This document shows, one piece after another, positions 459-60,180 of a stretch of DNA of 64,000 nucleotides; position 1 is the stretch's first letter, and each line of letters starts with the position of its first letter. The notes beneath the pieces were generated by a model. That model did no database searches. It had not been told where the DNA came from and saw only the letters and a program-made list of their open reading frames with translations. The position numbers and the translations under genes were made by a program. The DNA is from Cafeteria roenbergensis (Eukaryota > Sar > Bigyra > Bicosoecida > Cafeteriaceae). The stretch lies in NCBI GenBank assembly GCA_008330645.1, contig VLTN01000012.1, forward strand, positions 310,001 through 374,000, written 5' to 3'.

Positions 459-767
459 ATCAGTCGGCTGAGTAGTCGCAGATCCGCTCGGCCAGCGCTC
501 TCGCAAGAAGCAGTGTCTGGTCTGCGCTGGCAAGGAACACCCCGGGCTCCAAGTGAGGTCCGGCGCGCAGGTCTGCGGGGGCCTCGGAGGCCGGCCGCCT
601 GTGCGCCCCGGGGGCGCGCCAGCAACGGACTCGCCGCGCCGCGACATTTTGCCGGCAGAGCCGGCCTTCCCGGCAGGCTGGACACGCCGCGGGTGCGTGG
701 CGGCACAGTCTGCGCGCCCACCGCGGCACCGCCTGGCCGGGGAGTGCCTCGCCGTGAGCCAGCAAGC
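459..767. promoter_or_regulatory. Shared promoter region, unknown gene / ERD2
   Basis: This 309 bp lies between divergent start codons and holds no gene. GGCAGAGC is at 654-661, inside a larger palindrome-like GCCGGCAGAGCCGGC. It lies 107 bp upstream of the ERD2 ATG. No TATA box is evident. Confidence 0.5.
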
Positions 768-1722
768 ATGATGAACATCTTCCGCTTTGTGGGCGACATG
801 TCGCACCTGGCCAGCTTCTTCCTGCTGCTCGCAAAGCTCATCTACACCAAGTCCTCCACTGGTGAGCCCTTCCCCTGCGCGCTCGACCTGGCCCCAGCCC
901 TCGCGGGCGCGCCCGGACACGCGAGCACCCGCCGCCTCTTGCAAAGGGGCATGCGATTGCCAGACCCCTTTGGCCACGCGAGCGGAGCTGGCGATGAATG
1001 CGGCTGCGAGCGTGCTGGCTTCGCGCCTGCGCGAGATGCGACGGCCTGGGCCGCGCCCTAGCCCGCCCTTACTCCCCGTCCCCGCAGGAGTCAGCCTGAA
1101 GACGCAAGCCCTCTACCTGACCGTGTTCGTCTGTCGGTACTTGGACCTGCTCGTGGCGTTCGTGAGCTGGTACAACGAGTTGATGAAGATTTTCTTCATC
1201 GCAGCGTCGGCGTACATTGTGTACGTGGTCGCGACCAGCACGCGGAACAGCAACGCTAGCGACACGTATAGGGTCGAGTTCCTGGTGATCCCGGCCCTCG
1301 TGCTCGCGTGCTTCGTGAACGAGACGCACTGGAGCAAGGGCGGTTGGTCGCTCAACGTGATGGAGATTCTTTGGGCGTTCAGCATCTACCTCGAGGCCGT
1401 AGCGGTACTCCCGCAGCTGAAGATGCTGCACCAGCTGGAGGACACGACCAACATCACAATGCATTACATGGCGTCCCTGGGCATCTACCGCGCGTTTTAC
1501 CTCCTCAACTGGGTGTACCGTCTCTACTACGAGGGCTATTGGCACCCAATCGCCGTCGTGGCAGGCATCGTGCAGACGCTTCTCTACGCTGACTTCTTCA
1601 TCCTCTACTACCAGTCCGTTCTCCTCCGCTTGCCATCCGTCACCGGCAAGGGCGGCGCTGGCGGCCGCTTCTCGTGGACTTCAACTCTCAACAAGATGAT
1701 GCTGGGCTCCCGCTCATCCTGA
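768..1722 (+). CDS. ERD2: ER lumen protein-retaining (KDEL) receptor
   Basis: Seven-helix Golgi/ER receptor that binds the C-terminal KDEL-like signal of escaped ER residents and returns them to the ER in COPI vesicles. There are two exons: 768-861 and 1088-1722, with a 226 bp intron (GTGAGC...CGCAG) splitting a Gly codon; the product is 242 aa. The N-terminus MMNIFRFVGDMSHLASFFLL, the block RYLDLLVAFVSWYNELMK, the block RVEFLVIPALVLACFVN, the ILWAFSIYLEAVAVLPQL segment and the IVQTLLYADFFILYY helix all follow the family closely. The C-terminal tail is about 30 residues longer than usual, Gly/Ser-rich, and lacks an obvious KKXX signal. A second ATG follows the first at once; either could be used. 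Confidence 0.95.
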
Positions 1723-2075
1723 TCGTGACCAGAGGGCGCCCGAGCTTGTGCGCAGAGGGCGCGTTTGTCTGGAAGGCCCGCGGAGCCGTGAGCGCATGGA
1801 GCGGCCCCTGAGGGGGGGACGGCGGAGGGGTGGGGGGGGGGGGGCGCGCTTTGCCGCGTGCGGGCGGGCCTGTCTGCTACCTGTCGCTGCAGCGTTGGGC
1901 CTTGCTTGGGGCGTTTGCTCGTTGCAGCACATCGAGCTTGAGGTGGATCGGGGGGCGATGTGTGCGCGTGTGGGCGGATCATGGCGCTCGATGCAGCTGG
2001 GTGCTTGGCCGGGCGCAGCACAGCGTGGGAGCACACTCGCTCGGCAAAGGCCGCACGATTTCACCACCATTCACC
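1723..2075. other. Gene-free 3'-3' spacer
   Basis: This lies between the convergent stops of ERD2 and the leucine-rich repeat gene. It contains a run of 13 G at 1832-1844. I see no RNA gene or clear terminator. Confidence 0.4.
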
Positions 2076-2396: not shown

Positions 2397-2435
<39 letters not shown>

Positions 2436-3770: not shown

Positions 3771-3992
3771 TGGAGAGCGGCCGCGCGGGGATGCGGAGGT
3801 TGCAGTGCCGCTGGGCTGCGAGCGCCGAGGCTGCACGAGTGTTGCGGAGAGGCGCGGCCGCTCGAGCGGGCTCTGCCGGCCGGGCCGTGCGAAGGCGCCG
3901 AGCGCGAGCTCCCGCGGGGCCGAGCGCGAGGTGCTTGCTGCACCTCTGCTGCCCCGTCCCGCCCGCCGCCGCCCCTCGACCACCGGAACACC
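3771..3992. promoter_or_regulatory. Shared promoter region, LRR gene / mitochondrial-type protein
   Basis: 222 bp between divergent start codons. GGCAGAGC is on the minus strand at 3870-3877, 100 bp from one ATG and 116 bp from the other. Confidence 0.5.
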
Positions 3993-7668: not shown

Positions 7669-7935
7669 GGGCGGCCCAGGAGGGCGCGCAGCTGAGGTGC
7701 GGGCGGGGAGCGCGAGTGGCTCCGGCTTGCCGTCGCGAGGCAGTCGCACCCCGATTGCCAGGTGATGACTTGGGCAGGTAGTTGGCGCCCCAACCCTGGC
7801 TGCGACTGCGCCCGACTGGCAGAGCGAGCGTTGCCGATTCCGTCGTCGTCCTCGTGCGAGGACGCGGCTCACCGACTCCACGAGGCCAGCGAGCCCTTCG
7901 CCCCGCGCAACCGCTTCGAACCCGCGCACGTGGCG
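7669..7935. promoter_or_regulatory. Shared promoter region, RanBD-methyltransferase / EIF1AD
   Basis: 267 bp between divergent starts. GGCAGAGC is at 7818-7825, 111 bp before the EIF1AD ATG. Confidence 0.5.
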
Positions 7936-13016: not shown

Positions 13017-13208
13017 GCGCAAGGCCAGCCCGCTCCGTCGCGGCCAGGCCTCCGAGTGCGCTGCCGCGCCGGCGCAGTCAGCGGGCAGTTGCTCGTCGGA
13101 CAACTGCCCGCCGCGAGCAGAGCCGGCCGCGTCCCGGCGGCAGAGCTGCCCGGCGCGGGAGCGCCGGAAGCAGCCCGGGCGGCTGCGAGCCGCCCACAGC
13201 CTACATGC
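13017..13208. promoter_or_regulatory. Shared promoter region, axis-like gene / TRAIP-like gene
   Basis: 192 bp between divergent starts. GGCAGAGC is at 13139-13146, with a near-copy AGCAGAGC about 20 bp upstream of it. Confidence 0.5.
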
Positions 13209-15700
13209 ATGGCCGACCAGCATGCGGCTGACGGAGTATGCATGATCTGCATCTCGTCGATGCGCCTGGGCAGCGGCCTCGCGGTATCCACGGCCTGCGG
13301 GACCGTGTTTCACAAGGAGTGGTGAGGCTGGGCTCGGGCGGTCGCCGTTGAGGGCGCTGCGCGACCGCAAGGGTGCCAGCATAGCGAGGGCGCTCGCGCA
13401 TCGAGCAGCAACGATGCCCGCCCTTCCCTGGCTTCGCAGTCTGGCCGCCTGGGAGTCCGCATCCAAGCGGCAGCGGAGAGAACTGGCCTGCCCACACTGC
13501 AAGTCTCCCACCCAGTGTCTGGGTCTCCGCGTGAGCACGGACTCGGGCAAGCCGCACACCAACCAGGCAGGACTCCCGCTGTTTGTTAGGGAGATGATAG
13601 AGCGCCTGGATGGGGCGCTGGCCACGGCTGCCGCTGCCGAGGCCGACGCGAAGGCGGTTGCCGAGGAGTCGCGCGAGTCGCTTGTGCAGCAAGCGGCCGA
13701 GCTGGACGCGCGGGTGCGGGTGCGGGAGGAGGAGGCCATTCGTGCCAAGCTCGAGGCCGAAGAGGCGCTGATGCGCGCCCGGCAGGCGGAAGGCCGCGCA
13801 AGTTCCGAGCGCTCGGCTGCCCTCAAAGAGCGAGAGACCCACGAACGAGCGACGAGGGAGATCGCCCTTCGACTGCAGCGGGCAAACGCAATGGTCCGTG
13901 CTGGGAAAGCGTGAGTGACTGGCTGCCAATTGGGCTCAAGAGGTTGCGGCTGCGCAACCGAGCGTCGAGCTGCACCGTGTCTGTGTTGCGACGGGTAGAG
14001 CGTCGCGCGCGACCGCGTCGGATTGCACGCCCACTGGCCGCAGAATCGAGACGGAGAACGCGCGCCACTTCACGAGCGGAAGGGACCCGGCGGACCTGTC
14101 GAGGCAGGAGCTCGAGGCCGCGTTGTGGAGCGCGACCGGCGCCTTCGAGCGCGCGTCGGCCAAGGCAAAGCGAGCAGAGTCACAGCTGCGAATCAAGGCA
14201 AGAGCAGAGGAGAGGGCGTCCGCGGCAGAGGCGAAGCGTCGGGAGCTCGAGTCCCAGCTCGCAGACTCCAGGCTCGCCGAGAAGGGGCTTCGCCGTGTGG
14301 CAGCCGACTTGAGGAGGCGAAGCGAGGCGCTCGCGGCGCAGGCCCTGGCCACAGGCCTCTCAGTCCCCGAGGTGGCGGCACACGCAGCATCCCGTCATGC
14401 GGGGAAGCGCCCCCGCAGCGCAGTGCCCCGCAGCGCCCTTGAGGCGGAGAGGAGCCAGAACGGTGGCGCGAGGCAGCGGCCGCACCTTGCGGAGCGGGAG
14501 CCAGGTTCGCAGGCACAGAATTCGGCCGCCAGTCCGCGTCTGTCCCCGAGTCCTGCTGCGGGCGAGGCCGTGCCTGCATCGCTGAAGGAGCGCCTCGAGA
14601 CGGCCACGCAGCCTCCGCCGCCGTTGACGCAGGTGGAGGCCGGAGCCGGCCAAGAGGCGTCGCAGTCGGTGCTCGCGGACCTGATGCAGTCCCAGCCCGA
14701 CCCCACGCAGTGCAGGGACGCTTTCCGCGGCGCAGCCTCGAGGCCGGGCCAGCCGCGCACAACAGACCAAGCGACCGTGGACCTGGTCTCCCAGAGCGAC
14801 GACGCTGGCCCGCAGTTTGCGTACACGCTAGCCCCAGCGCCGGGCCGGCACCGGGCCGACGGGCCTGGCAACGAAGGGAGCGCGCCTGGCCGTGCTGTAG
14901 CTGGGCGAAAGCGCCCCCGCGACTGCGAGAGCGACGGCCCGGCCGCGGCGGCGGCCGAGAAGGCCCGTGCGCCACGGCCTGCCCCCAGCGCAGCCGCGCA
15001 AGGGCCAATGGCGCACGACGAGCTGGAGGAGGCCGCGAACCTGCTGTGGGACGAGAGCGAGGGCCAGGGCGGCCGGGTCAGCGGAAACTCGGCGAAGCCG
15101 GCCGCGCGGCGCGAAACCGCTGCACTGGTCGCGGCAGTTGCGGCGCAGGCTGCCGCCGCCAGGGGCAGGTCGTCGAAGCAGACCGATCCCCCGCGAGCGG
15201 CATCGCAGACGCAGTACCTGCACCTGGCATCGGCTCTCACGGACGCTCGCGGCGACTTCCCGGAACGGGGTGGGGATCGTGCGAGGGAGCAGTGGGCGCG
15301 CGTTGCCCCGCGCCCTGGGCTGGGCCGCTCCAAGCGCCGCGCCTTCGGCATCGGCGCTTCTGGAGCTGGGCTTGGGCCAGGCGCCGCGCCGCGCCCGCCG
15401 GGCCTCTCGCACACCAGCTCTGCCAGCTCCCAGCCGCCCTCGTCAATTCGAAGCAGCGCGCACGGGGCGGGCGACGACACGACCACCCTTTTGTCTGCGC
15501 TGGCATCGGCCCGGGCTGGCGCGTCCACGCACGTGCGGGCGAGGGACGCCACCGGCGCCCCCCTGTACCTGCGGAGGGGTCAGCATGTCAGCACCAAGGT
15601 TGCCAAAGCTGGCGGCGCGCGCAAGACTGCCCTTGCGTCGGCTTCCCGCCGCCCTCTTGCGCAAATGCGACTGAGTGATGCGGCTTGGGGGAAAGCCTAG
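13209..15700 (+). CDS. TRAIP-like RING finger / coiled-coil protein (putative E3 ubiquitin ligase)
   Basis: Three exons: 13209-13321, 13440-13910 and 14044-15700, with introns of 118 and 133 bp (GTGAGG/GTGAGT...CGCAG); 746 aa. The N-terminal RING reads CMIC, then TACGTVFHKEC, CLAAW and CPHC, with intron 1 splitting the sixth-ligand Cys codon. Spacing and the Cys-x3-Trp after the intron match TRAIP, an E3 that acts on stalled replisomes and crosslinks. The usual fourth ligand (His of CGH) is Thr here. A coiled coil spans residues ~90-290 (MIERLDGALATAAAAEADAK through RELESQLADSRLAEKGLRRV), again as in TRAIP. The long C-terminus is disordered with basic patches; I see no clear PIP box. Ligase function is inferred. 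Confidence 0.8.
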
Positions 15701-16653: not shown

Positions 16654-16823
16654 GGCCTAAAACTTCCCCTCGAGTGGCTGGGGCGCGGGCGCGCTCGGCA
16701 CGGCTCCGACTGTCACGGACCGCTGGCCGACGTCGACACAGAGCCGGCCGGCAAGCCCCCGGGCAGAGCCGCCAAGTGTGGGTCACTCGCGACTTGCCTC
16801 GCTCCGGATCGCGCCGGCGGCGT
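16654..16823. promoter_or_regulatory. Shared promoter region, RPS25 / mitochondrial-type membrane protein
   Basis: 170 bp, the shortest divergent spacer here. GGCAGAGC is at 16762-16769, 109 bp from the RPS25 ATG and 55 bp from the other. Confidence 0.5.
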
Positions 16824-18716
16824 ATGCTCGCGCGAGGCGGACCATGTCTGCGGGCGGCCGCGCTGCTCGGCCGCCGCGGGCTCGCGGCCGCGGCCCACCC
16901 TTCCCGCCCGCAGGTGCGCGACCCGGGCCCGCCGAGAACTGTTCCGCGCACGACCGGCCGGCGCCGACCTCGCCCCGCTGCGGAGCACCCCCGAGCTGTC
17001 GAGGCGCGCAAGCAAGCTGAAATGAAGTCGGCGCTGGCCCACGGCGCCGCCAGTCTGAGGGAGGCGACCGAGGCGATGCGGCTGGCGTTGCGGGCGTCCG
17101 CGCCCGCACAGCTCGAGCTGGGGACGCGCGCCCGGCAGATCGCCTCGTCAGTTGGAGAGGGAGCGGGCCTCGTGGCGGTGGGTATCGCGGCCAGTGAGCG
17201 CGCCTTCTCGCGGCGCACGGGGATGTCGGAGTGGGTGCTGCGCGTCATCGTGGCCGCGATTGTAATGGGCGTCGGCTCCCTGGCAGTGACGTTTGCCGAC
17301 ACAATCAAGGCCTTCATGGGCGCGCAGGCGTCCAAAGCTGTGGCTGGCGTGCTCCGCGACGAGGACATTCGCAACAGCGCTTCGCTCACCGTCTCGGAGC
17401 TGGCAGAGCGGCTGTTGGCGGACGACGAGCTTCGCACCGCATCGGCGGCGTTCCTGCAAGGGCTCATGGCCGCCCCTGAAACGCGTGCTGCCTTGCTGGA
17501 CCTGCTGGTGTGGGCGCTGCAGGAGGAGAGCACTCGTCAGCAGCTGGTCGCGCTGCTGTCCCACGAGGCGACGTTGCGTGCCACGCGGGACCTGCTCATC
17601 TGGGCATTTTCAGACCCGGCCACCCGCCGCCAGATGGAACAGCTCGCGTCCTGGCTGCTGGCCGACGAGAGCTTCCAGCTTGTCGGCGTTCGTGCGCTGC
17701 TGGGAGTGCTCAACTCGACGCTCGACGACAAGCCGCTTCGCGACCACGCGGCGGAGGCCCTCTCAAGCGTGGTGGCGGACACAAGCCTGCAGCAGCGAAC
17801 CGGGGAGGCCCTTTGGAACGCAGTGGCCTGGTCCGTGACGCCCTCAATCTTGCGGTCACCCGATGGCAAGCCAGAGGCGGCGGTGCCGGACGCAGCTGCC
17901 CTGGCGCCCGCACCCCCCGCCGACGCGGCCCAGACTGTGGACGGCGCGCAAGCAGGGTCCGTGGGCGATGGTGACTCTGCGGCTGCGGCCGCGGCCGCAG
18001 CTGGGGCCACCCATCGGCAGGAGGCGGGCGAGCCCTCTCCGAGCGCTGCCCCCAGCAGCGCCCCCGCGGCCCAAAGCGCCCCGACAGGCGCCCTCCTCCC
18101 CGGGAAGCAGCAGGCTGACGGCCCTCCCCGCCCGGCCGTGTCCACCGCCAACGGCCCGGTCGGCAGGCGTCCCGAACCGATCGAGCTTGCGCCGGCCGGC
18201 GAGGGGCCTGACACGGCTCCCCGCGGAAGGTTCGGCGTGCGCCTGCACCGCGATGCCAACGAGGCACCCCCGGAAGTGCCCGTTCCCTCTGCACGCGTCG
18301 CATCGGCGAACGGAGCGACCAAGAGGCGCCAGGGCGACCCGACCAAGCTGGGACGAGCTGCAGACGGGGCCGCCCCTCAGGCCGCTCACCACGAGCCCGC
18401 GGGGACTGCTCCCCAAACAGCGGTGCCAGCGGGTGCACGCCGCGCTGTGCCGGAAAGCGGGGCCATTCCGTCGCCACCGAGGGCGCGTCTCGCGACAGGC
18501 GTGAGCCAGTCCCGCTCGCCGGGCAGCTCACAGGCTGCCGGCGGGGAGCCCAGCGGCCAGAGCCGCAGCGACCCGCACCCCCCTGCGCGTGCCGCTGCCT
18601 CCGGCTCACAGAATGCGACGAGAGCGGGCGCCGAGGACGCCCAGTTCGTTGCCGAGTGGAAGCAACCTCTGCACTTGTTGGAGTCGGGCGCGCAGACGCA
18701 CGACCAGCGCGCCTGA
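16824..18716 (+). CDS. Mitochondrial-type single-pass protein with helical repeats
   Basis: A single exon of 630 aa; the ATG at 16824 is chosen because it starts a presequence-like segment (MLARGGPCLRAAALLGRRGL) and lies just downstream of the promoter octamer. A transmembrane helix is at ~residues 135-155 (VLRVIVAAIVMGVGSLAVTF). Residues ~180-345 contain repeated helical units of ~40 residues built around LLADDELR / LLVWALQEESTRQQL / LLIWAFSDPATRRQMEQL / LLADESFQL, resembling ARM-like solenoids. The C-terminal ~280 residues are Pro/Ala-rich and disordered. I do not recognise the family; an inner-membrane scaffold is a guess from the layout. Confidence 0.7.
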   Translation: MLARGGPCLRAAALLGRRGLAAAAHPSRPQVRDPGPPRTVPRTTGRRRPRPAAEHPRAVEARKQAEMKSALAHGAASLREATEAMRLALRASAPAQLELGTRARQIASSVGEGAGLVAVGIAASERAFSRRTGMSEWVLRVIVAAIVMGVGSLAVTFADTIKAFMGAQASKAVAGVLRDEDIRNSASLTVSELAERLLADDELRTASAAFLQGLMAAPETRAALLDLLVWALQEESTRQQLVALLSHEATLRATRDLLIWAFSDPATRRQMEQLASWLLADESFQLVGVRALLGVLNSTLDDKPLRDHAAEALSSVVADTSLQQRTGEALWNAVAWSVTPSILRSPDGKPEAAVPDAAALAPAPPADAAQTVDGAQAGSVGDGDSAAAAAAAAGATHRQEAGEPSPSAAPSSAPAAQSAPTGALLPGKQQADGPPRPAVSTANGPVGRRPEPIELAPAGEGPDTAPRGRFGVRLHRDANEAPPEVPVPSARVASANGATKRRQGDPTKLGRAADGAAPQAAHHEPAGTAPQTAVPAGARRAVPESGAIPSPPRARLATGVSQSRSPGSSQAAGGEPSGQSRSDPHPPARAAASGSQNATRAGAEDAQFVAEWKQPLHLLESGAQTHDQRA

Positions 18717-20081: not shown

Positions 20082-21962
20082 ATGGCAGCAGCCACGGCCC
20101 GCCTTGCCCCGTCGGTCGAGTCGTGCGGCACAGCGGATGATGCGATGAGCACAGCCAAGGTGACACCGCGGCCATCCGCCGACATGCGGGAAGGCGGCAA
20201 CACGTCCACCACAAGCACGGAGCCGGTGGGTCGCGGCACCGCGAGCACGCCCGACGGCAGCAGCTCGACTACGGACGGCAGCCCCGCACTCCCGACGGCA
20301 GGCGCCGTGCGGATGCCTTGGCAGCCACAGTCGTCCTCGCAGTCATCGCCCGCCGCTCCTGCGGCCCCGCGCGCGGCGGCGTTCCACCCGCTGACGGGCC
20401 CCGCCAAGCCAGACACGATGCCACCTCCACAGCAACCCGTCGTCACGGCCAAGCCGCCGCTGCGGCAGCAGCACCCGCAGCACGCCCCATCCCCGAAGCC
20501 CGAGCAGGTCAGCCCTCGGTCCGCGCCGCGCGCCAGCCCGCAGCCGGTGCCCGGCCGCGCGCCAGCTCAGTCGTCCACCGGTGCCTTCGGGCTCGAGATG
20601 CTCCTGGCCGCAGCAGGAGAGGGCGCCTCCCGGTCCGCCGCAGGCCCGGGGGGGCGCGTGGGCTCCGCAGGAGGCGGCCGGGGAGCAGACTCCTTCGCGA
20701 CGGCCGGCGACGCCCCGCCTCGCGGAGTGAGCTCCACGGCCACCCCCTCCCCGATGACGGCACCCGGCAGCGCCGCGGGGATGGCCAGCCGCTTTGACCC
20801 GCGCCGTCCCGGCATCGTTGGAACTGCTGGCCTGCTCGGCGTGCGGCAGCCGGGCTGGTCAGTCCCTCGCGGCGTTCCTGGCGCACAGACCACCGACGAC
20901 CGCGGCACGCCGCAGCCGGCCATTCGTGGCGTCAGCTCTGGCAGCGCGCCGATGCACCGAAGCGGCTCCATTGTTCGGCCGACCGTTGCGCCGCCCGCCA
21001 TGGACGCCTTCTCGGGCTGGAGAGGACTGGCTCCCGATGCGCCGCAGCCACTGCCCTGGGCCGACCTGGGCGCCGGTGTGTCTGCGGCCTGCGCTGTGGT
21101 GATTCGCTCCCGCGACGGCGGCCAGCGCATCGTCCCCGAGGCCCAGTTTGTCGAGGCATACGGCGCGGCTGCGCTCTCCAAGCTGCGCTCCGCCGCGCGA
21201 GTGGCTGCCCCCGTGCCCCAAGGGGCGCACTTTGCGCGCGCCGTGGCCGGAGGAGCGCACAGGGACCGCGTTGGGGGTATGTCCGGGTCCTGGGACGGCT
21301 CGGCCGATCGCGGCCGCGGAGGGCTTGGCCCCATGCTTGGAGGGCTTGTTCCCGGCAGCATGGAGCAGGCTGGGGGCATGACCGCAGGCGCAGTGGCGGC
21401 GAGCAGCGCAGCAGCAGCTGCAGCAGCTGGCGCTGGTGCGGGCAGGGGAGGCAGAGCGTGGAGCCGCCGTGGCGGACCGGCTCGCGCCGCAGGGAGGAGC
21501 GGTGGTAGAGCCCTTGCCGGCGCAGGGGACGAGGGGGACTACTCCGACGACAGTCCCGCAGCAACGAGCGGAGCCTCTGCCGAGGGCAGCGGCGGAGCCC
21601 GGGGGCGCGACGCCCCGGCCCGGCGCGGGCGCAGACCCAAGCGTGCCCGCAGCGTGGACGGCGAGGGCGCCGATGATGCCGATCCCCCCGAGGAACCCGA
21701 GGACGCGTCGGGCGGGCGCACCCCCACTGGGTCCCGCGCCAGCTCCCGGGCACGCACCGGTGAGTACATCACGTCTCGGTTTCGCGGCGTGTACGGCCGC
21801 AGCAGTGCCAAGGCCAACGGCGTCCGCTGGGCGGCCCACGCCAGCGACGGGAAGCGCAAGGTCCACCTCGGGTACTTCAACACGGAGGAGGACGCTGCCA
21901 AGGCGTACGATGAGGCCGTGCGCCGCTTCAAGGGGCCGAACGCCATCACCAACTTCGCGTGA
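20082..21962 (+). CDS. AP2/ERF-domain transcription factor
   Basis: 626 aa, one exon. The only folded part is the very C-terminus: SRFRGVYGRSSAKANGVRWA, then HLGYFNTEEDAAKAYDEAVR and a final FKGPNAITNF. This is a complete AP2 DNA-binding domain with the YRG-like and AYD elements. The ~560 residues before it are Ala/Pro/Gly/Ser-rich and disordered, with a basic stretch (ARRGRRPKRARS, a possible nuclear signal) and an acidic stretch ahead of the domain. AP2 domains occur in plants, apicomplexans and several protist groups. The ATG at 20082 is the first Met after a long leader; further upstream in the same frame the translation is not protein-like. Confidence 0.85.
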   Translation: MAAATARLAPSVESCGTADDAMSTAKVTPRPSADMREGGNTSTTSTEPVGRGTASTPDGSSSTTDGSPALPTAGAVRMPWQPQSSSQSSPAAPAAPRAAAFHPLTGPAKPDTMPPPQQPVVTAKPPLRQQHPQHAPSPKPEQVSPRSAPRASPQPVPGRAPAQSSTGAFGLEMLLAAAGEGASRSAAGPGGRVGSAGGGRGADSFATAGDAPPRGVSSTATPSPMTAPGSAAGMASRFDPRRPGIVGTAGLLGVRQPGWSVPRGVPGAQTTDDRGTPQPAIRGVSSGSAPMHRSGSIVRPTVAPPAMDAFSGWRGLAPDAPQPLPWADLGAGVSAACAVVIRSRDGGQRIVPEAQFVEAYGAAALSKLRSAARVAAPVPQGAHFARAVAGGAHRDRVGGMSGSWDGSADRGRGGLGPMLGGLVPGSMEQAGGMTAGAVAASSAAAAAAAGAGAGRGGRAWSRRGGPARAAGRSGGRALAGAGDEGDYSDDSPAATSGASAEGSGGARGRDAPARRGRRPKRARSVDGEGADDADPPEEPEDASGGRTPTGSRASSRARTGEYITSRFRGVYGRSSAKANGVRWAAHASDGKRKVHLGYFNTEEDAAKAYDEAVRRFKGPNAITNFA

Positions 21963-35687: not shown

Positions 35688-36027
35688 TGCTCGCGGACGC
35701 ACTGCGGCAAGCTGCGGTCTTCGCACGCTTCGGCCGTCCGGCGGCGCCTTCGAGTGCAGCCGCGGGGGCAACCACATTGTTTGTTGGCTGCCGAGGGCAG
35801 AGCCGCCCGCCGCGGACCCAAACCGCCCGGCGGCGCCTGCGCCCGCCGCGGCCCGAGCGCGGCTGGCCACCTCCGCAGCGCGTTGGCCGTACCTGCGCTC
35901 CCCTTCCTGGTCCTGCCGCTCGTGCAGACCCCCCGCAGCCCGACAAGAACCTTGAGCAGCCGCGCTTCAGCGAAGGCAGCTTCTGTGTTTTTGCTTCTTG
36001 CCCTCTCTCCTTTTCTCGCTCGTCACC
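35688..36027. promoter_or_regulatory. Shared promoter region, GH95 / SmG
   Basis: 340 bp between divergent starts. GGCAGAGC is at 35796-35803, 109 bp from the GH95 ATG. A T/C-rich tract (about 35985-36020) sits just before the SmG start codon and may mark its transcription start. Confidence 0.5.
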
Positions 36028-38285: not shown

Positions 38286-38293
38286 GCTCTGCC
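38286..38293 (-). promoter_or_regulatory. GGCAGAGC octamer upstream of TVP23
   Basis: An exact copy on the minus strand, 46 bp upstream of the proposed TVP23 start. It supports the 15-nt first exon at 38226-38240. Confidence 0.45.
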
Positions 38294-39680: not shown

Positions 39681-40013
39681 CCCCCGGGCGCCGTCCGGTG
39701 CGCTTGCGGGGGGGGGGGGTGCGAGCCGGGGTGTTGCACGCAGCCGGCGCAGGGCTCTGCCCGCGACGGCAACCAAGCGCGAAAACAAAGCAAAAGCAAG
39801 CGAAATTGCGCGCCGGTCGGCTCCTCGTACCAGCACCGGGGCACTCCGCGCGACCCGTCCGCTCGGGCCGCAAGAAAGAGCTCGTACCGCCTGCCCTGCG
39901 CAGAGCGACCGCAGCTGCTCGCGCCACCGGCCCCGGCGGAGCCGACGAGTGGTTCGCTTGCTGACTTCGAGCGGCCGGCCAGCCGTCCTTCGTCAGCGCC
40001 AGCGCCCGTAGCG
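39681..40013. promoter_or_regulatory. Shared promoter region, BIN4-like / zinc-finger SDR
   Basis: 333 bp. GGCAGAGC is on the minus strand at 39754-39761, 74 bp from the BIN4 ATG; a one-mismatch copy CGCAGAGC at 39899-39906 lies 108 bp from the SDR ATG. There is a G run at about 39709-39719. Confidence 0.5.
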
Positions 40014-43932: not shown

Positions 43933-44263
43933 CTCGAGTCGGCAGCGCCGGGGGAAAAGCGTGCAGCCCGCCGGGCAGCGCGCCGGGGCGGTGGGGCCGA
44001 GGCGGGGGCAGAATGCGCTCCCACGAACGCGTTGGTGCAGCTACCGGAGCCTTGCGGGGCTCGCAGTTGCACAGGCGCGCAGAGTGCGGTCAGGGGAGAG
44101 CGGGAAAAGCCCGGCGGGATGCGGCATCGCTCCCCAACCGCCAGGCCAGCGATCGGCCAGGCAGAGCGTGTCGCGACACGGCGCGAACCGGCTCACGCAG
44201 CGCGAGCCGGCTCACGCTGCGACAGGCGCCGGCGCAGCGTGACCCGAGCAGCGCACCCAGCCG
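43933..44263. promoter_or_regulatory. Shared promoter region with octamer and 14-bp palindrome
   Basis: 331 bp. GGCAGAGC at 44160-44167 overlaps the perfect palindrome CGTGTCGCGACACG (44167-44180). Downstream, GCCGGCTCACGC-like units repeat near 44188-44218. It lies ~85-100 bp before the CAMKMT ATG. Confidence 0.5.
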
Positions 44264-47222: not shown

Positions 47223-50200
47223 TCAGTTGAAGAAGTAGGGCGAGTCGCGGACCACGGAAAGGTCCAAGGTGCCGCGCGCGGGCAGCTCCGGGAAGCGCAG
47301 GCCGGGGAAGCGCAGCACGAGCGACTCTCTGAGGTCCTCCAGAAGCGGCATCTCGTAGAGGCGCACGAACGCGTCGCGAAGGGCGATGTTCATCGCGTCG
47401 ATGTCGCTCGCGTGAGTCCAGTACGAGTCGTGGACGGCGGTGAACACCATGCCGCGGCGCGCGCACTCGAGGCCCGTGAGCATCATGTGGGTAGAGTCGA
47501 GGGAGTGGACGTAGTTTGGGGGGAACGCCGAGCCCTGCTTCTGGGAGGAGACGGGGAGGGCATCGTTCTCCGATGCCAGCACCACCTGCTGCATCACCGT
47601 GGAGACCACCTGGCTGGAGTTGCGGCGGTAGGGCTGCACGACGGGGAGTCCCAGCGGCGTGATCCACGCCATGGGCTGGTTGGAGGAGGAGACGAGGCGC
47701 GCGGCCTGCGTCAGCCAGGTTTTGATGGCGTCGGCCGCCTCGAACATCTGGCCCAGGGAGTCCAGCGTGGTGCGGGCCAGGTAGGCGGCGCTCTTGTACA
47801 CGATGTCGTCGAGCTCGTCGGGGGAGAGGCCGAGCTCCTCGCGGCGGGGCTCGAACGTCTCCCGGAGGCGGTTCCGGATCTGGTCACGCGCGCCGATGAA
47901 GGTCACTCCGTACACTGACGTCATCACCGTCTGCTTGATGGTCTTTCGCACCACGTGCCCGCGCACAAAGGCGGCGCACCTGCGCCGAGAGTCGTAGTCC
48001 TCGAGCTCGTCGTCGGGGGTGCCAGGCTCCGGCACCTCGGGCAGCGTCGCGTCCAGCTCGATGCGCTGCACCACCAGGTCCAGCACGGCGCTGTACACGT
48101 CCTGGGGCTTGTCCGCCTTGACCAGGTTCACGGCCTTGGCCCCTCCCAAGTCGCGGCCGAGCGCGGCGTAGTGCTGCAGGCCGTTGCACGTGCCGTCCTG
48201 GTGGACGGGCACGCTGGACAAAAAGTCCTCGGGGCTGGGGCTGCGCAGCGCCTCGGCGAGCTCGATGCACGTGGCCAGCGCCTGCCAGGGCGAGTCGGCA
48301 GAGAGCCACCAGCCGTTGCCGGTCAGCGGGTTGTCGGCGGAGTCGAAGACCTCTGCGAGGTTGTCCTCCACGTACTGCTCGCGCTCCACGAAGGAGACCT
48401 TGTCCCGGCCCATCTTGTTCGCGAGGTGGATCTTGAGCCAGCGCAGGCCGTCGGCGCCGAGGCGCTTGCGCTCCGCGAAGACGAGGAGGCCGCGGCAGAT
48501 GTCGGCGCCCATGTGGTTCAGGTGGGGGGGCACGGGGTAGACGCGGCCGCGGAAGTCGAGGTTGTGGGGGAAGTAGACGACGTCGTCCACGAAGCGGTCG
48601 ACGACCTCCATCTTGAGCTTGTGGTCGCAGCGCAGGGAGTGGAGGTTGCGGTTCCACTGCTGCACGCGGTTGGCGAGGCGGCGCCAGGCGCGAAGCTTGT
48701 TGCGGGCGGTCTCCTCGTCGTCCTCGGGGTCGATGCGGGGCGGCGGGGGCTCGGCGTGGTCCGACAGGGAGGGGATGTCGGCGATCCCGCCGCCCGATTC
48801 CCAGACGCCGCGCACCACGTCGCGGACCTTGGTGTTCATGCGCCAGGCCACGCCGCCCAGGATGTCCAGCGACTTGAACACGGAGGGCATGGACGCCTCG
48901 CGCAGCACGCGGGACTGGGCCCGGGAGCCCTTGGTGCGCATGAGGCGCGCGCGCTGGAGCACGTAGCCGCCGGAGTCCGGCGACTGCCAGCGGCGGGGTG
49001 GCACCAGCATGGGGTAGAAGAGCTGGCGGTTGGGGGAGGGGCCCGCCTCGGCCAGAAGCGCGAGCACCCTGGGGTGGAGCCGGATCACGCCCACGGCGGC
49101 CTGCCTGCCGCCCTCGGAGCCCGCGTTGCTCCGACCCCGCTTGGGCGCCCACGCGTACGAGTGCACCAAGGCCGGCATCTCAACGTGGGACCCCGGGGGC
49201 GCGTGCGCCAGGTCCTCGTCCGCCGCCTCGGCAGAGGCCGCGGCGGACTCCGCCGCCACCTCGGCAGACGCGGCGGACTCGGGGTCCAGCGTGGCCATGG
49301 CATCGTCCGCCGCGGCGAAGCGCTGGCCGGCGTCGGCGAGGTGCTTCCCGGGGTACCGGAGCGCGTCGAGAGACCGCAGCTCCGTCGCGGAGGGCAGCGG
49401 GAAGAGCGACTGGATCCAGGACCCGTCGTACCCGGCCTCGGGGCCCAGAGCGGGCTTGGCGCAGGCGCGGTTGCCCTGCAGGCCGAATCGCAGGTAGCGG
49501 ACGGCGTGATGCAGCGAGGACAGCGCCACGCCGCGCACGCGCGCGGGGGCGCTCCCCGGGGCGTCCCGCTCAGCCGCCGCCTCCACTGCTGCCGAGGCGC
49601 TGCTCGCGCAGGCGCCGCTGGGAAGGTCCGCCGCGTCCAGGCCGTCGCTTTCCCCGCCCGCCTCGGCCCCGCCGTGGGCAGCCAGGCGCCCCGACACAGC
49701 CGCCCTGTCGTGGCCGCTGTCGGCGAGCAGGGCGCGCTCCCGCACCGACTGCTGCTGCTGCTCCTCTGCCCCCGCCGCTGACGTCGCTCCGGCCTCGTCC
49801 CACGCCAGGGCGTCGCGCTCAAGCTCCATGTCGCTCTCCGAGGTGGAAGCCAAGTCGGCTGACGCCTCCTCGGCTGCAGCCTCGTCGCCAGCCGCCGCAG
49901 GGACCGGCACGGCCTCCGGCGCCACCAGCCCCGGGAAGGAGATGCTGTCGTCGCGCGATCCGAGCTCTGCCAGCCGGGCTCTGCGCGCCGCGTCGGCCTC
50001 CAGCATGCGCTTGCGGGCCGCGACCTTGGGGTCCGCCTCCGCAAGGGTCGCGCCGCTGCCGCTGCCGCTGCCGTCGGCGTCGGCGTCGGCGGAGGGGTCG
50101 GGCGGCGCCTCAGCCCCGTCCATTCCCACGCGGATCCGCTCTTCGGGAGACATCCTTGCCGCCACCCGCTCCATGGCCTCGTCCAGACGCAGATGGCCGG

Positions 50201-52085: not shown

Positions 52086-52379
52086 GGTGGGCGCACGCAC
52101 TCGCTGCAAAGGTCGGGCCGAGCAGACCGCTGGTTGCGGACTGTCGTTCGCAGCGAGTGGCGGGGAGGAAGCGCAACGAGAGGGCGTGCAGAGCCGCAGC
52201 AGCAGCGCGCGGCGGCGTCGGCGGCGAGCCCGGGCGCACCGCTGCGAGGAGACACGCCCGCTGCGCCCCCGCGCACTGGGCTCTGGAAGCTGCAGGGGAG
52301 TGTGCTCTTGCCCGCGCCGGCGGAGTCTGCTTCGCTTGCCCATTGCAGCCTGGCCGGGAGCGGGAGAGGAGGGGCGAGA
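52086..52379. promoter_or_regulatory. Shared promoter region, mitochondrial RNA polymerase / APE2
   Basis: 294 bp. This is the only head-to-head promoter without an exact octamer; TGCAGAGC at 52187-52194 has one mismatch. Confidence 0.4.
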
Positions 52380-53663: not shown

Positions 53664-55819
53664 CTGGATTGTGGATCAGTGATGCGCCCGTCGCCGCTGG
53701 CTGCGCGGCCAGCGGAGTCGCGCCGCTCGCCGTCCAGCAGCGCGACGAGGCCCTCGCAGTCGGCTGCGGCTCGCTCCGCCGCGCGTCTCGCGTCCGCCGC
53801 GGCCGCCTCGTGCGTCGCGCGGATGGCACCGGTCGCCTCCGGAATTGCCAGCACGGAGTCGATGGCCGCGCAGAGCTCGGAGCTCGCCTGGCCGACGTCT
53901 GCTGGCACCGCGTCTCCTCTCGCGAGCGACTCGAGCAGGTGTAGCAGCATATCGGCCACGTTGGAAGGCTGGGGAGCGCCGGGCTCCCCCGAGGTGAGAG
54001 CCGACACGCTGGCGCTGAGGGCTCTGGCAGTCTCCGCCAGGTCGGCCGCCTGCTCTGGGGAGCGCGCGAGCAGGACGAGGCTGCCGTCCGCCGCGCCGCG
54101 CTCTGCGGCGGTGCTCTCCGCCTCGCCGCCGGGCGGGCCGGCTCCGCGGCCGTCGTCGAGCTCCTTGGCTGCCGAGGCAACCGCAAACCCGGCCACGGCA
54201 TTGACTGCCCCGGGAGATGGGGTGCGCGTGGCGACCGCGGCCGCTCCGGAGGCGTGAGACCTCGCCCTCGCTGCCGCTGCCCACGTGCGACGCAGCATCT
54301 CTGAGGCCGCACGGACCAGACTCTGGTGCTGCGAGGCCTTCTTCTCGCGCGCTGTGGCGTGTGCGGTCTCTGCAGCCAGCTGCGCCGCTCGAAGGCGGCT
54401 CTGGGAATCAGTGAGGCGGGCCTCGGCGTCGGCAATCTCGGCGCGCAGGCCAGCGGAAGCGCTGCCAATCCTGTCAGCCTCGCTGGCCAGCCGACGCGTC
54501 TCCTCGTCAATCGCGTTGGAGGCGGCAACGGCTGCCTCGCCAATGGCACTGGCGGCATCCCGGAGAGCCCCGGCGTCGGCTTGGAGCGAAGGAATGGTGG
54601 CGGCTGCCCGCTCAACGAGGGCCTGGATTTCAGGGACGGCCTTGCACTGGGAGGCCAAGTCGTCCAGCCGGTGCCTGGCCGCCTCGGCCTTGCTTGCCAG
54701 CTCTTGTTCGGCCGACGCCGCCGCTTCTCGCACTCGGACCAGCCTCGTTGCCGCGTCGTTTACCTCGCGGACGGACTGCGGCAGGGCGCGCTCGCACACC
54801 CACCGGGCCTTGTCCTCGAGGCAACGGCACGTCGCATCCCATGCGCCGGAGATGCAAGCGGCGAGCTCCAGCGGATCGGCGACGGTGCCCCCGTCTCCTT
54901 CGGCAGGGGCGTCGCTGGCTGCGCCGTCTGCAGCCGCAAGGATGCGTTCAGCATCTTGGAACTTGGCAACGGGTTCTTTCGCACCGATGAGGGTTGCGAC
55001 GGCTGCTCCAGCAGGCGCGAGTGCTCGCGCTCCCTTGACCAGCCGGCGCTCGAACGGGCTGCCATCGGCTCTCGCTCGGCCAAGCGCAGCCAGGGCCCCG
55101 TCCCGACGCTTGCGGGCAGCGTCGAGCGTGGCCAGCGCGGGCCCGAGCTCCGTTTGCGACTGCATCGCCTCTCGCCGGGCAGAGCGGGCGCCGCTGACGG
55201 CGCTTCGCAGCTCCCCCTGCGCAGCGACCACCTGGGCCAGCGATTTGGCCAGCACGGCAGTCGCCTCGTCTGCATCCTTCCGGGTAGCTTCGGCGTGCTC
55301 GGCCACCGCGACGGTGCGCCTTGTCAGGCACTGGAGCACGCAGGCGGTCGCCGCCTCATGAGCCATGGGCTCCCCGGCGGCAGCGACGGCCGCGCCGGTT
55401 TCCGCGTCTGGGGGAGGCCATGTCGTGCACAGGTCGCCGTCTGACGAGGAAGGCTCGAATAGCGAGTACACCGAAGCTGCGCCGGGATCGCTGGCTCCGC
55501 ACTTGGTCGGGTCCAGCAGCTTTGCGACGCCGCCGACGCCTGATTCGAACACCCCCACCACGGCGGCCTGGGCACGCGCCACAAGCTCGGGCGCCGCCGT
55601 GTGTGCTGCCACGCTCCTGGCCAGCCGGGAACGGGCGTCCGCCACTGCGGCCTCCATCCGCTTCAGCCGCGACTGGATTTCCTCCTTGCCAACTGCTGCG
55701 GCCTCGATGCTCGACCTGGCCGACTCGAGAGCAGACTTGGCGTCTCGCACATAGGCCTCAACTTGTCGAGACCGTTGCACTGTCTGGAAGCCGAGGCTTC
55801 GGGCCTCCAGCGCGGCCAT
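53660..55819 (-). CDS. Long Ala-rich coiled-coil protein
   Basis: 719 aa from ATG 55819 (MAALEARSLGFQTVQRSRQV). Nearly the whole protein is heptad-like Ala/Glu/Arg helix (AYVRDAKSALESARSSIEAA, EELASKAEAARHRLDDLASQ-type segments, LRAEIADAEARLTDSQSRLR). It is interrupted near residues 95-160 and 280-330 by short non-helical parts with Cys and Trp. No family can be named; cytoskeletal, basal-body or chromosome-associated roles are all possible. The frame is open further upstream to 55960, but this Met begins the coiled coil and sits 83 bp from the promoter octamer. Its stop lies within the APE2 stop. Confidence 0.7.
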   Translation of the reverse strand: MAALEARSLGFQTVQRSRQVEAYVRDAKSALESARSSIEAAAVGKEEIQSRLKRMEAAVADARSRLARSVAAHTAAPELVARAQAAVVGVFESGVGGVAKLLDPTKCGASDPGAASVYSLFEPSSSDGDLCTTWPPPDAETGAAVAAAGEPMAHEAATACVLQCLTRRTVAVAEHAEATRKDADEATAVLAKSLAQVVAAQGELRSAVSGARSARREAMQSQTELGPALATLDAARKRRDGALAALGRARADGSPFERRLVKGARALAPAGAAVATLIGAKEPVAKFQDAERILAAADGAASDAPAEGDGGTVADPLELAACISGAWDATCRCLEDKARWVCERALPQSVREVNDAATRLVRVREAAASAEQELASKAEAARHRLDDLASQCKAVPEIQALVERAAATIPSLQADAGALRDAASAIGEAAVAASNAIDEETRRLASEADRIGSASAGLRAEIADAEARLTDSQSRLRAAQLAAETAHATAREKKASQHQSLVRAASEMLRRTWAAAARARSHASGAAAVATRTPSPGAVNAVAGFAVASAAKELDDGRGAGPPGGEAESTAAERGAADGSLVLLARSPEQAADLAETARALSASVSALTSGEPGAPQPSNVADMLLHLLESLARGDAVPADVGQASSELCAAIDSVLAIPEATGAIRATHEAAAADARRAAERAAADCEGLVALLDGERRDSAGRAASGDGRITDPQSS

Positions 55820-56051
55820 GCGCCGCTGGCACGCAACCTCGACTGCAAGCGGACAAGTGCCTCGCTGCCGCAAAACCTCACGCAAGCACACAGAACGCAC
55901 AGCTCTGCCAGCAATCGCCGGACCGCGCGCCCAAGCGCCCCGCGCCTGCACAGGCGGCATGCGGGCGTTTGTCGCTGCGGGAAGCGTGCTTGGGCGCGCG
56001 CGGGCTACGAGGCCAGATAGGGGCGCCGAACGGGCCGTTCATGCGGTCGCA
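55820..56051. promoter_or_regulatory. Shared promoter region, coiled-coil gene / SAM methyltransferase
   Basis: 232 bp. GGCAGAGC is on the minus strand at 55902-55909. Confidence 0.5.
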
Positions 56052-57019: not shown

Positions 57020-57092
57020 AGGACAGAGTGGCAGCTTTGCTTGCCCCGGTGCCGCCGAGCAGGATATGCGGGAGCGACGCGAAACTCGGCAC

Positions 57093-59991
57093 TCACGCGC
57101 GGGCCGCCTCTTCGGGCTTGCCCTCGCCGCGGATGGCTGCAATGGTGGCCTGGACGTCGACGAGGGTCGAGTCAAGGCCGGCGATGAACTCCTTGTTGCC
57201 CTGGCCGAAGGACGCCACGTGGAACTGGGCGCCACGCGGCTCGATGCCGTAGCCCACGCCGTACGAGGTGCGAGACACGGGCCCAAACCCGCCGCCGTCG
57301 AGAGCGGGGCTCTGCAACGTGGAAGTGGAGAGCCGGATGTCCGTAAAGGTGCCGTAGGCGCCGTCATCGAAGATGGCCTGCGGGCCAGTGCCGATGCGCT
57401 CGCACCACTTGCGGAGCGCGAACAGGTGGCGGTCCACGCCCTTGCCCATCATGCACTGCGTCGTGATCTTCGAGTGCAGCGCCGTCGATGCCCTGCGGTC
57501 GACCAGGCGGGGCGGGCAAGGGCAAGGGCAAGGGCGAGCTTGGAAGGCGGGGGAGGGGATGGGGGGGCTGGGGGAGCAACGATGCTCGGAGCAGCGGACG
57601 GGCTGCGTTGGCAATGGCGTCGAGGCTTGAGGGGGGCGACTTGCGATCGCTCTGCACAGGCGTGCCGCCTGCGGCTCACTGCATGGCGCGGTACTTCTCC
57701 TCGTGGGTGGCGGTGGGGTTGTTGAACGCCTTGCACACCGCCACAGTCTCGTTGGTGGCCGGGCGGATGACCTCCGTGCGGCCGTGCTTGAACGCTGCAG
57801 TGGTTGCCGACTCGTAGGTGGACGGGGTGTAGCCGTGGGCGCGGACGTGCGCAAGCTGCATGATGAGCTGCATCAGCCCGTCGGGGCCCAGCTTGGAGCG
57901 CTTCACGTCCTCCTTGTTCATCGTTTCGCTCCGGAACACCTGCGAACGCGCCAGCCAACAAGCGCCAGGGAAGCCGCACGAGGTCGATGCGCCGCGCTCA
58001 CACTCGATCGGCGGCGGCGCCGCCCGCCAGCAGCCGCCCGTGACCCCAAGTCACACACGGCCGCCCCGCCGCGCAGCCCCGTCGTTTACGTGGCAGCGCC
58101 GCTCACGTCGAGGTCCATCTCCTTGATCGTGCGCTCGGTGTGCTCCACGGCGCTGGCGACCGTCGCCGCGGTCTTGTCATCGAAGTGGAAGCCCAGGCGC
58201 TCGGGCGCGGGCATGGAGGCAGCGGAGGCGTGCTCGCGCGCAGGCATGTCCGTGATGGCCGTGTACACCTCGTTGAAGAAGTTAAGCACGGCCACGCCGT
58301 CTCCCCAAGCGTGCTCCCAGGAGATGCCCGCACGGCCTGCGATGCAACCAGGGGAGGGGGGCGGCGGGGCGGCGGGGGCACGAGTTGGTCGCGGCGCAAG
58401 AGCACGCAAGCGCCGACGGGGGCAGCGGCAGAGGGCAGGCGGACTCGCCGGCGGACACCCCGCGCCGTGCCCCAAACCAACTGCCGGCGCGGCGACGGGA
58501 GCGTCCGGCGGGCGGGCGGGCGCGGCGACGGGAGCGTCCGGCGGGCGGGCCGGCGCGCTGCCGGCGCAGGCGGCTCACCGTTCTTGCACACGGCGATGTT
58601 GAAGCACTTGTCGAACCAGCGGTCACGCTCCCCACCGTGCAGCATCGCGCGCGAGAGCTCCTCGTGGGTCTCGGGGGTGCTGTCGTCCAGGGAGATGACG
58701 AACAAGGCGCGGTCGACGTCGGCAAGCGAGGCCCGGTTCATGGGGCTGGTCTCCATGTGCTCGCGCGCGTCCGCCCACTCGTCGCGGTTCATCTCGGTGA
58801 GCGCCGCCACGCGGGGGAGGCCGCTGGGCTTGGCTGCGAGCACGGCGCGGATCTGCGCCTCGATCTGCGAGGGGGAGAACACCTTGAGGTGCTGGCCGTC
58901 GACGTCGCCGTCCGCGCCCTCGAACAGCCGCACCTTGAACAGGTCGGAGCCTCGGATGGCGATGGCGAAGTTGCAGTGCTCCGCGGACCTGAGCTCGTCC
59001 TTGGAGCGGTGCGGCACGCGCGTGGAGCAGAAGAGGCGCGCGTACTGGGACATGTCGAGGGCGTAGGCGCCCGCCGCGACGGCGGGGTAGTAGCTGAGCG
59101 ACGACGGCAGGAGCTTGACCATCTGCTCGAAGGCGGGGTTCTTCGTGATGTGGGCCTTGGTGTGGAAGGCGTCCGGGAGGAGAACGTTGGACTTGAGGGC
59201 GGCGTAGTAGCGCGCGGCGGCGTGGCAGATGTCCGCGGCCCGCACGGCCTGCTCGTTCTTGGCGGGGTTGTCGTCCATGCGCCACGTCACCTGGGGCGTG
59301 ATGTTGATGGGGAGCGGGCTCCGGTCGCGAAGGTACATGTCGTACCACATCTCGGAGATGTAGGAGGTGTGCGGATGGTGGTCGTCATCGCTGATGAGCG
59401 CGGCCTGCGCGCGGGGACCCGCGTTCGCGCGGAAGTCCTCTACGGCGGTGCGCGTTGCCGTAAGCTGCTCGGCGCTCACAAGCGGCTCCACGAAGCGCAG
59501 GTACCTGCGTCGGGAGCGGACAGGTAGCACTTGCAGCAAACGTGGAATTAGGGCGCCGGCAAGCCGAGCGCACCTGCATGTTGCAAGCACGGACACTCGG
59601 CCCGCAGCTCACTTGTCAAGCGTTTCATTCAGGTCGGGGATGGGCAGGCGCGGGAGCGAGCCCTGGAAGTGCAAGGTGGGGATCCGGCTGTTGTGCAGAT
59701 AAGTCTCGGTGTACGGGAGCTGGTGCGATGCCAATGCTGCGGCCGAGGTCGACACTGCCCGAGAGCCGCGGCGGGTGACCTGCGGCCGAAAGACACACGA
59801 AATTGGGAGGCTTGGCGCGCCATCAAGCGGGCTGCAACGCGGTTTGCCGAATACGGGCAGTCGGCCATTCAGCTCTCCCGCGCGCTGCCGACGCTGCCGC
59901 GAGGCTGCGCCGCCCCGGCCATGCCGCTCGCCGCGCGCACGCTCCCCGGGACGGAAAACGGCCTCACTGCCGAAACAGAAGTCGCGAGCAT
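57093..59991 (-). CDS. CPT2: Carnitine O-palmitoyltransferase 2 (mitochondrial)
   Basis: Converts acylcarnitine back to acyl-CoA on the matrix side for beta-oxidation. Six exons: 59968-59991, 59613-59779, 58579-59504, 58107-58336, 57680-57939, 57093-57492 (introns 188, 108, 242, 167 and 187 bp); 668 aa against 658 in human. The 24-nt first exon plus exon 2 give a presequence, MLATSVSAVTRRGSRAVSTS. Family blocks: HFQGSLPRLPIPDLNETLDK, SEMWYDMYLRDRSPLPIN, SSLSYYPAVAAGAYALDMSQ, RWFDKCFNIAVCKNG, catalytic His in SWEHAWGDGVAVLNFFNEV (~381), TYESATTAAFKHGRTEVIRP, GKGVDRHLFALRKW and STSTLQSPALDGGGFGPVS. All junctions keep frame. Confidence 0.95.
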
Positions 59992-60180
59992 GGCAGCCGA
60001 TTTCGTCGCGTGCAGTCCTTGCTGCAGCCCAAAGCAGATCGGCTCTGCCGATCGACGATCGACCGGAACTGCGCAGCCGCGCCACCCCCATCGCACGGCG
60101 CGTCGGCCTGCTGCGCCCGGGCTTGCGGGGAACTGAGGACTGTGGCTGCCCCGGGCCGCTCGACAGTCGGCGGGCCGCTC
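59992..60180. promoter_or_regulatory. Shared promoter region, CPT2 / secreted His-rich protein
   Basis: 189 bp. GGCAGAGC is on the minus strand at 60042-60049, 51 bp from the CPT2 start, inside a palindromic stretch CGATCGGCTCTGCCGATCG (60037-60055 approximately). Confidence 0.5.

Follow-up and report, generated by a model that had tools for sequence, protein, structure and literature searches.

In the DNA of Cafeteria roenbergensis, the octamer GGCAGAGC recurs in the gaps between divergently transcribed genes, where it occurs about once per gap, and we give roughly even chances to the reading that it is the core of a double-stranded recognition site for a putative sequence-specific DNA-binding protein acting as a general promoter-proximal factor. 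The octamer had been pointed out in an earlier note on a 64,000-nucleotide stretch of contig 12 (C12:310,001-374,000, the window) of an assembly of 36.3 Mb in 167 contigs. We analyzed letter by letter 314 kb, consisting of the window, C1:1-200,000 and C5:100,001-150,000 (C1 and C5 being further contigs of the same assembly). These stretches are a non-random sample of one genome: the window was preset, and the C1 and C5 pieces were picked blind to their letters. Gene labels are home-made. Coding sequence was labeled with a codon hidden Markov model (HMM), whose choices were compared with Pfam. In the window, matches were found in 7/10 of the open reading frames (ORFs) chosen by the HMM (2 of them under the family cut-off) and in 3/6 of the earlier ORFs, and in C1 in 10/12 long pieces (1 under the cut-off), these 12 being taken from 20 listed pieces.

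The gaps between predicted genes carry the main evidence. In the window and C5 the octamer was present in 14/16 divergent gaps, against 1/14 convergent (p = 2.2e-5) and 6/27 same-strand gaps (p = 7.6e-5), the latter being a mixture of introns and promoters. In 200 dinucleotide-preserving shuffles, means of 2.02 divergent (maximum 6), 1.4 convergent, and 2.3 same-strand gaps were occupied. For the 12 divergent spacers of the window, the earlier note had estimated by hand that 0.25 would hold the octamer by chance; scaled to that number our shuffles give approximately 1.5, about 6 times more, and the conclusion that the occupancy is beyond chance still holds. Both octamer-free divergent gaps of the window and C5 contain the variant TGCAGAGC, as read from a gap table that omits gaps shorter than 100 bp (convergent: 1/10, 1/4, and 2/19). 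Among all octamers, GGCAGAGC reached the highest divergent-gap occupancy in these 2 stretches (next non-overlapping word, 10 gaps), and GCAGAGC was the sole 7-mer present in 16/16 of them (next non-overlapping word, 14). In C1:1-200,000, occupancy was 10/19 for divergent, 6/19 for convergent, and 14/48 for same-strand gaps (2.7, 2.5, and 5.2 in shuffles). When the 3 stretches were pooled, 24/35 divergent gaps were occupied, compared with 7/33 convergent and 20/75 same-strand gaps (p = 1.0e-4 and 5.2e-5, respectively). These 24 divergent gaps were filled by 25 copies, whereas random placement would fill 16.3 and 0/20,000 simulations reached 24, indicating that the copies are spread one per divergent gap. 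A word present in most promoters, at about one copy each, is the pattern of a general promoter-proximal factor site, and it is weaker in C1 alone.

The word is also over-represented in the genome as a whole. The assembly contains 20,918 copies of the octamer and 3,302 of the reversed word, which bears out the genome-wide enrichment that the earlier note had made one test of its proposal. The corresponding numbers are 6,415 and 367 for the 10-mer CGGCAGAGCC (17-fold), 1,512 and 50 for the 12-mer CCGGCAGAGCCG (30-fold), and 111 and 2 for the 15-mer GCCGGCAGAGCCGCC, so that the excess increases with word length. When the words of the 314 kb with at least 10 copies were ranked against an order-3 Markov model, the top non-simple word was a piece of the octamer at k = 7 and an extension of it at k = 9, 10, and 11; at k = 8, GCAGAGCC ranked first and the octamer second. 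Around the 173 copies in the 314 kb, C was found at -2 in 53% and at -1 in 56%, and C followed the octamer in 56%, then G in 47%. This conservation reaches approximately 3 bases per side and no further, giving a longer consensus that is roughly C-C-GGCAGAGC-C-G/A. The octamer is not a palindrome, since the arms of GGC-AGA-GCC enclose a non-palindromic centre. Among the centres of GGC-N3-GCC, AGA/TCT is the commonest in spite of being AT-rich (97 versus a mean of 25), and the all-GC centre GCC/GGC comes second (87). One-base variants were over expectation at the first base with A (2.0) and T (1.8) but not with C (0.8), and at the last base (1.5-1.9). Separately, the word-internal variant GGTAGAGC was found 16 times versus 3.6 expected (4.5-fold), unlike the other internal one-base variants.

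A word of this kind might arise artificially from a GC-rich composition, from codon use or from the mixing of organisms in the assembly, and the GC content of the window (71%) would favour this. However, the reversed word, the shuffles and the order-3 models all fall far short of the octamer counts, and control octamers lie near the codon-shuffle expectation in C1 coding sequence, where the octamer does not (see below). These comparisons refute a compositional origin. Mixed assembly was likewise rejected, because codon use, compared by eye, looks alike in C1, C5, and the window and gives no sign of mixed organisms. We consider an artefact of any of these sorts extremely unlikely.

To describe where the octamer lies within divergent gaps, we used its distance to the nearer coding edge and its strand. 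The distances peaked at 100-150 bp (8/25 copies), and 15/25 copies lay at 100-300 bp. Nine of the 25 copies shared the strand of the nearer gene and 16 had the opposite one (p = 0.23), and thus the orientation bias expected of a core element of the INR, FPR or DPEP kind was not significant among these copies. Because it has no significant orientation preference and peaks 100-150 bp from the coding edge, a core role of the octamer is not supported; judged by these features, it resembles a promoter-proximal binding site rather than an initiator-like core element. The base after the octamer was C in 9/15 divergent-gap copies of the window and C5 but in 3/14 coding copies of the same stretches, and in 14/25 divergent-gap copies of all stretches (p = 0.049 against those 3/14). 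Since the following C is rare in them, the coding copies of the window and C5 seem to be mostly chance occurrences.

In a comparison of HSP90 proteins, the named records among the best 120 of 8,000 matches were mostly oomycetes together with the stramenopile Chrysoparadoxa, a few oddly placed plant, fish and sandfly entries aside, in keeping with a stramenopile origin of the genome; metagenome proteins include an HSP90 with 83% identity. Among other stramenopiles, the oomycete core elements INR, FPR, and DPEP are oriented and positioned at the start site or immediately downstream of it, INR and FPR being AT-rich (PMC3599244). The octamer shares with them that it is a putative stramenopile promoter element at unrelated genes, and differs from them in that they are oriented and start-site-bound and that INR and FPR are AT-rich. 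For Phytophthora infestans promoters, the same paper mentions motifs that are in excess between 75 and 300 nt before the start site; they show no orientation bias and are interpreted as likely enhancers or proximal elements (PMC3599244), and the octamer is like them in position and in its lack of orientation. The strings GGCAGAG, GCAGAGC, and CAGAGCC are absent from the main texts, figures and logos aside, of PMC3599244 and of a P. infestans factor-specificity paper, PMC11267843, and in the available portions of the 2 papers we noticed no multiplication of the P. infestans motifs in coding sequence. Searches of the open-access literature for the octamer string, and for GGCAGAGCC together with 'promoter', gave no evident description of such a word among the matches listed, which are a partial set. 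In yeast, Reb1, Abf1, and Rap1 are general regulatory factors with promoter-proximal sites that are indifferent to orientation and occur at unrelated genes. The octamer likewise looks promoter-proximal and orientation-indifferent and is found at unrelated genes; we know of no several-fold enrichment of the Reb1, Abf1 or Rap1 sites in coding sequence by synonymous choice, and in this the octamer is unlike them.

The mechanism that we propose starts from one copy in what would be nearly every divergent promoter of the window and C5, mostly at a distance of 100-300 bp from a coding edge, with both orientations occurring. A general promoter-proximal factor would bind this site and thereby open the promoter that both genes share. 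The protein, its binding and its effect on transcription are what we infer from the sequence statistics. To our knowledge, general promoter factors are little known outside animals, fungi and plants, and an octamer that recurs once in almost all divergent promoters of stretches sampled here could provide a handle on such a factor in a stramenopile.

Several results weigh against this promoter-factor reading. All gene borders are set by the HMM labels, and the HMM was self-trained on the same 314 kb. Convergent gaps also have copies in the 100-150 bp bin (4/18; 1.5 per kb versus 2.6 in divergent gaps), and for this reason the peak at that distance is on its own weak evidence. The divergent gaps of C1:1-200,000 were not significantly richer in the octamer than its convergent (p = 0.32) or same-strand gaps (p = 0.09), and its convergent gaps contain 17 copies. 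In a word-by-word test of divergent versus other gaps, in which the words shown had at least 5 occupied gaps, the octamer was second by z in the window and C5, and it was outside the top 12 when C1 was included. Of the 173 copies in the 314 kb, 107 fall within predicted coding sequence, and C1:1-200,000 accounts for 93 of these. Finally, the silent recoding found in this rich C1 stretch, described next, is beyond what a promoter role alone predicts and speaks against such a role as a full account. From the earlier proposal of a general core or bidirectional promoter element we thus retain that the divergent gaps of unrelated genes are enriched, with one copy each, and give up both the core function and the restriction to promoters.

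To analyze the coding copies, we compared them with shuffles that preserve both the protein and the codon use. In C1 coding sequence, 93 copies were present versus 17.1 in the shuffles (5.4-fold; control word, 18 versus 13.8), and in the window and C5, 14 versus 8.3, which is near chance (control word, 11 versus 6.8). All 5 control octamers came within 1.4-fold of what codon shuffling predicts for C1 coding sequence, and the octamer was 6-fold above it (93 versus 15.1, with coding segments shorter than 90 bp omitted). The C1 excess was present in all 6 frames, with observed/expected values of 3 to 9 (for the protein-preserving shuffles and the second-position GC content (GC2), amino-acid-context and synonymous-codon analyses, segments shorter than 150 bp were omitted), and in the 3 stretches 54 coding copies were sense and 53 antisense. 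Codon choice changed where the octamer could be formed. In Gly-Arg-Ala, the rare codon AGA was used for 15/69 arginines in C1 versus 2.4% elsewhere (window and C5, 2/33); in Ala-Leu-Pro, GCT for 19/50 alanines versus 12% elsewhere (window and C5, 2/26); and in Ala-Glu, GCA in 88/422 cases versus 10.8% elsewhere (window and C5, 36/276). TCT in Ser-Ala was raised alike in C1 (114/735 versus 7.0%) and in the window and C5 (49/350 versus 5.7%) and is therefore uninformative on the octamer. In C1 segments with a GC2 of at least 0.58, amino-acid contexts able to encode the octamer numbered 459 versus 408 in a local shuffle, 12% more. The C1 coding excess thus stems for the most part from the use of rare synonymous codons, and a protein-level cause was rejected, with all 6 frames used and the contexts just 12% above the local shuffle. 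By GC2 class, the C1 excess was 87 versus 13.0 at 0.58 and above (approximately 6- to 7-fold) and 6 versus 2.4 below it (approximately 2.5-fold, from few copies). Coding sequence with a GC2 of at least 0.58 holds 87 copies in 94.0 kb of C1 and 6 in 32.1 kb of the window and C5; because the same GC2 class differs in this way, the difference between the stretches is regional and not due to constraint alone. When the C1-enriched words with at least 12 copies were ranked, the most enriched 6-, 7-, and 8-mers were each a piece or a shifted form of the octamer.

At a larger scale, the octamer is patchy on C1, the largest contig. Forward copies of CGGCAGAGCC on this contig number at least 80 (taken as the full set of that strand), with 6, 8, 10, 9, 1, and 8 in the 50 kb bins of the first 300 kb and 1, 1, 1, 1, 0, 0, and 1 in the following ones (variance/mean 3.2). 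C1 thus has islands and deserts at the 50-300 kb scale, being rich at 0-300 kb and nearly empty at 300-650 kb. For CCGGCAGAGCCG, variance/mean was 3.0 on C1, 1.3 on C2, and 1.1 on C3. The coefficient of variation of octamer spacing was 1.35 in C1, where the copies are clustered, 0.63 in the window (23 copies), and 0.73 in C5 (13 copies); regular spacing was rejected on the basis of the C1 value.

The coding excess and the patchiness could mean that the octamer is a genome-wide iterated word like HIP1 or Chi, with a system of DNA repair, recombination or modification promoting its copies wherever they are tolerated; it would then be in promoters mainly because these are tolerant or are sites of recombination. 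This idea draws on the 5.4-fold excess in C1 coding sequence (at least 3-fold in each frame), on its origin largely in synonymous choice with few additional contexts, on the variance/mean of 3.2 on contig 1, and on the deviations raised at the first and last base, where they are reported to concentrate in HIP1 too (PMC4390886). Against it, the coding sequence of the window and C5 is almost without excess over shuffles and control word, their convergent gaps are nearly empty (1/14), and one copy per divergent gap is not predicted by a blind drive. In addition, TCT in Ser-Ala is equally raised in poor and rich stretches, the octamer is not a palindrome, its internal variant GGTAGAGC is raised too, and C2 and C3 are only slightly patchy. 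On balance, an iterated word of this sort is a possible but rather unlikely explanation. The comparison with the 2 known words is instructive. HIP1 (GCGATCGC) of cyanobacteria and the octamer are both high-frequency octamers with end-base deviations, and a spread of HIP1 by biased repair or conversion has been proposed in bacteria (PMC4390886). However, HIP1 is a bacterial palindrome, and the word described here is non-palindromic, patchy and present once per divergent promoter in 2 stretches; HIP1 is also linked to DNA methyltransferases. Chi of Escherichia coli is a non-palindromic octamer that is over-represented in coding sequence too and oriented relative to replication. Our octamer is also non-palindromic and over-represented in coding sequence, and in C1 neighbouring copies point the same way in 76/136 cases, which hardly tests an orientation of that kind.

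Another explanation holds that 2 things coincide: a promoter element, and, in the rich stretch, large weakly conserved genes within which the same protein would have many regulatory sites, as intragenic promoters or enhancers. The rich C1 stretch does have large low-complexity genes with real domains (HECT, acyltransferase, condensin CAP-H2, RabGAP-TBC, and SHQ1), and C follows the octamer in 55/93 of the C1 coding copies, as it does in divergent gaps. Nevertheless, in C1 coding sequence with a GC2 of at least 0.58 the copies are random over segments rather than focused (dispersion chi-square 44.7, 42 degrees of freedom), and coding sequence of the same GC2 in the window and C5 lacks them. We regard this coincidence as improbable.

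High copy number and patchiness would also be produced by the spread of a mobile element or by an insertion footprint (introner, miniature inverted-repeat transposable element, or target-site remnant) that left the octamer behind. Flanking 3-mers repeat at one of 36 offsets (14 versus 5.2) and 4-mers at another (6 versus 1.4). These offsets vary with length, however, and the best-ranked 5-mer offsets occur in at most 4 copies; the 173 copies share no flanks past approximately 3 bases per side, the outer bases are without covariation, and the coding copies arise mostly by synonymous choice and not by added residues. Such an origin has very little probability. Among its specific forms, an insertion footprint was judged unlikely, as no offset stands out at more than one length and the highest 3-mer value (30 versus 16.8) comes from an offset that overlaps the fixed word itself. 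A hairpin or other structural element was rejected as well, with outer complementary pairs at 64 versus 60.8, 65 versus 56.8, and 57 versus 50.8 for positions 1 to 3.

A promoter role alone does not predict multiplication in coding sequence, and in the promoter-factor reading the coding copies would thus either be functional sites too or be added by a repair or conversion bias. In the rich C1 stretch, the octamer would have been multiplied through synonymous choice in weakly constrained coding sequence. Promoter use combined with a regional DNA-level force that multiplies the octamer fits the results best, the second part being unexplained, and these results would be covered by a bound site whose copy number is raised in addition by biased repair or conversion. 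More speculatively, and in our view with rather low probability, the octamer may play two parts at once. It would mark divergent promoters near-universally as a single copy, and a DNA-level force would recode synonymous codons into it over 50-300 kb, which would make it the counterpart of HIP1 or Chi in a eukaryotic nuclear genome. A bound protein might, for example, block meiotic breaks, and gene conversion would then keep spreading its site. The approximately 5-fold and largely silent coding enrichment in one large stretch, and not in 2 others, is unexpected for a transcription factor site, and makes it testable whether biased repair or conversion can multiply a binding site across a eukaryotic genome.

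The window contains 23 octamer copies, 15 forward and 8 reverse. By the HMM labels, they are found in 10/11 divergent, 0/10 convergent and 3/13 same-strand gaps, and in predicted coding sequence (9 copies in 43 kb). The coordinates and strand marks given in the earlier note were all exact, and its unmarked coding copy at 49964 is on the minus strand. Its count of 11/12 occupied divergent spacers compares with our 10/11, the gap that holds the copy at 3870..3877 (-) being same-strand by the HMM labels and divergent in that note. Other copies in divergent spacers are located at 654..661 (+; flanks GCCGGCAGAGCCGGC), 7818..7825 (+), 13139..13146 (+), 16762..16769 (+), 44160..44167 (+), 55902..55909 (-), and 60042..60049 (-; flanks CGATCGGCAGAGCCGATC). 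The gap between an MFS-transporter gene (-) and a chorismate synthase gene (+) contains one copy at 28876..28883 (+) and a second one 17 bp on, at 28893..28900 (+). A search with chorismate synthase for relatives suitable for footprinting found none in viral contigs and three bacterial loci in genome contigs, which were not used. Further copies lie upstream of a GH95-like gene (-) at 35796..35803 (+) and of a short-chain dehydrogenase gene (+) at 39754..39761 (-), and in same-strand noncoding gaps at 24631..24638 (+) and 38286..38293 (-). The variant at 52187..52194 (+) does read TGCAGAGC, as had been claimed; it is one base off the octamer and occupies the divergent gap between a single-subunit RNA polymerase gene (-) and a gene of the endonuclease/exonuclease/phosphatase family (+). 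For coding DNA, the earlier count of about 6 copies fell short of the actual 9: those at 17402..17409 (+), 21450..21457 (+), 27927..27934 (+), 33101..33108 (+), 37036..37043 (+), and 49964..49971 (-) had been seen, and those at 15417..15424 (-), 34352..34359 (-), and 55178..55185 (+) overlooked.

No known RNA or tRNA genes were reported in the window. The single-subunit RNA polymerase gene (47223-51722, -) encodes RPOL_N and RNA_pol domains, and we take it to be of the organelle type. The ORF at 20082-21962 (+) gave a weak match, under the Pfam cut-off, to the AP2 DNA-binding domain. Elsewhere in the 314 kb, the 10-mer GATGACGTCA, a bZIP/CRE-like word, was present in 13 copies versus 0.5 expected, and CCGGGAGAGGA and CGGGAGAGGAC in 11 and 12 copies, respectively, versus 0.4-0.5 expected, perhaps representing another word or a small family of repeats. 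Runs of 8 G or 8 C were approximately 10-fold over expectation in the noncoding gaps of the window and C5 (56 versus 5.3) and rare in coding sequence (3 after scaling).

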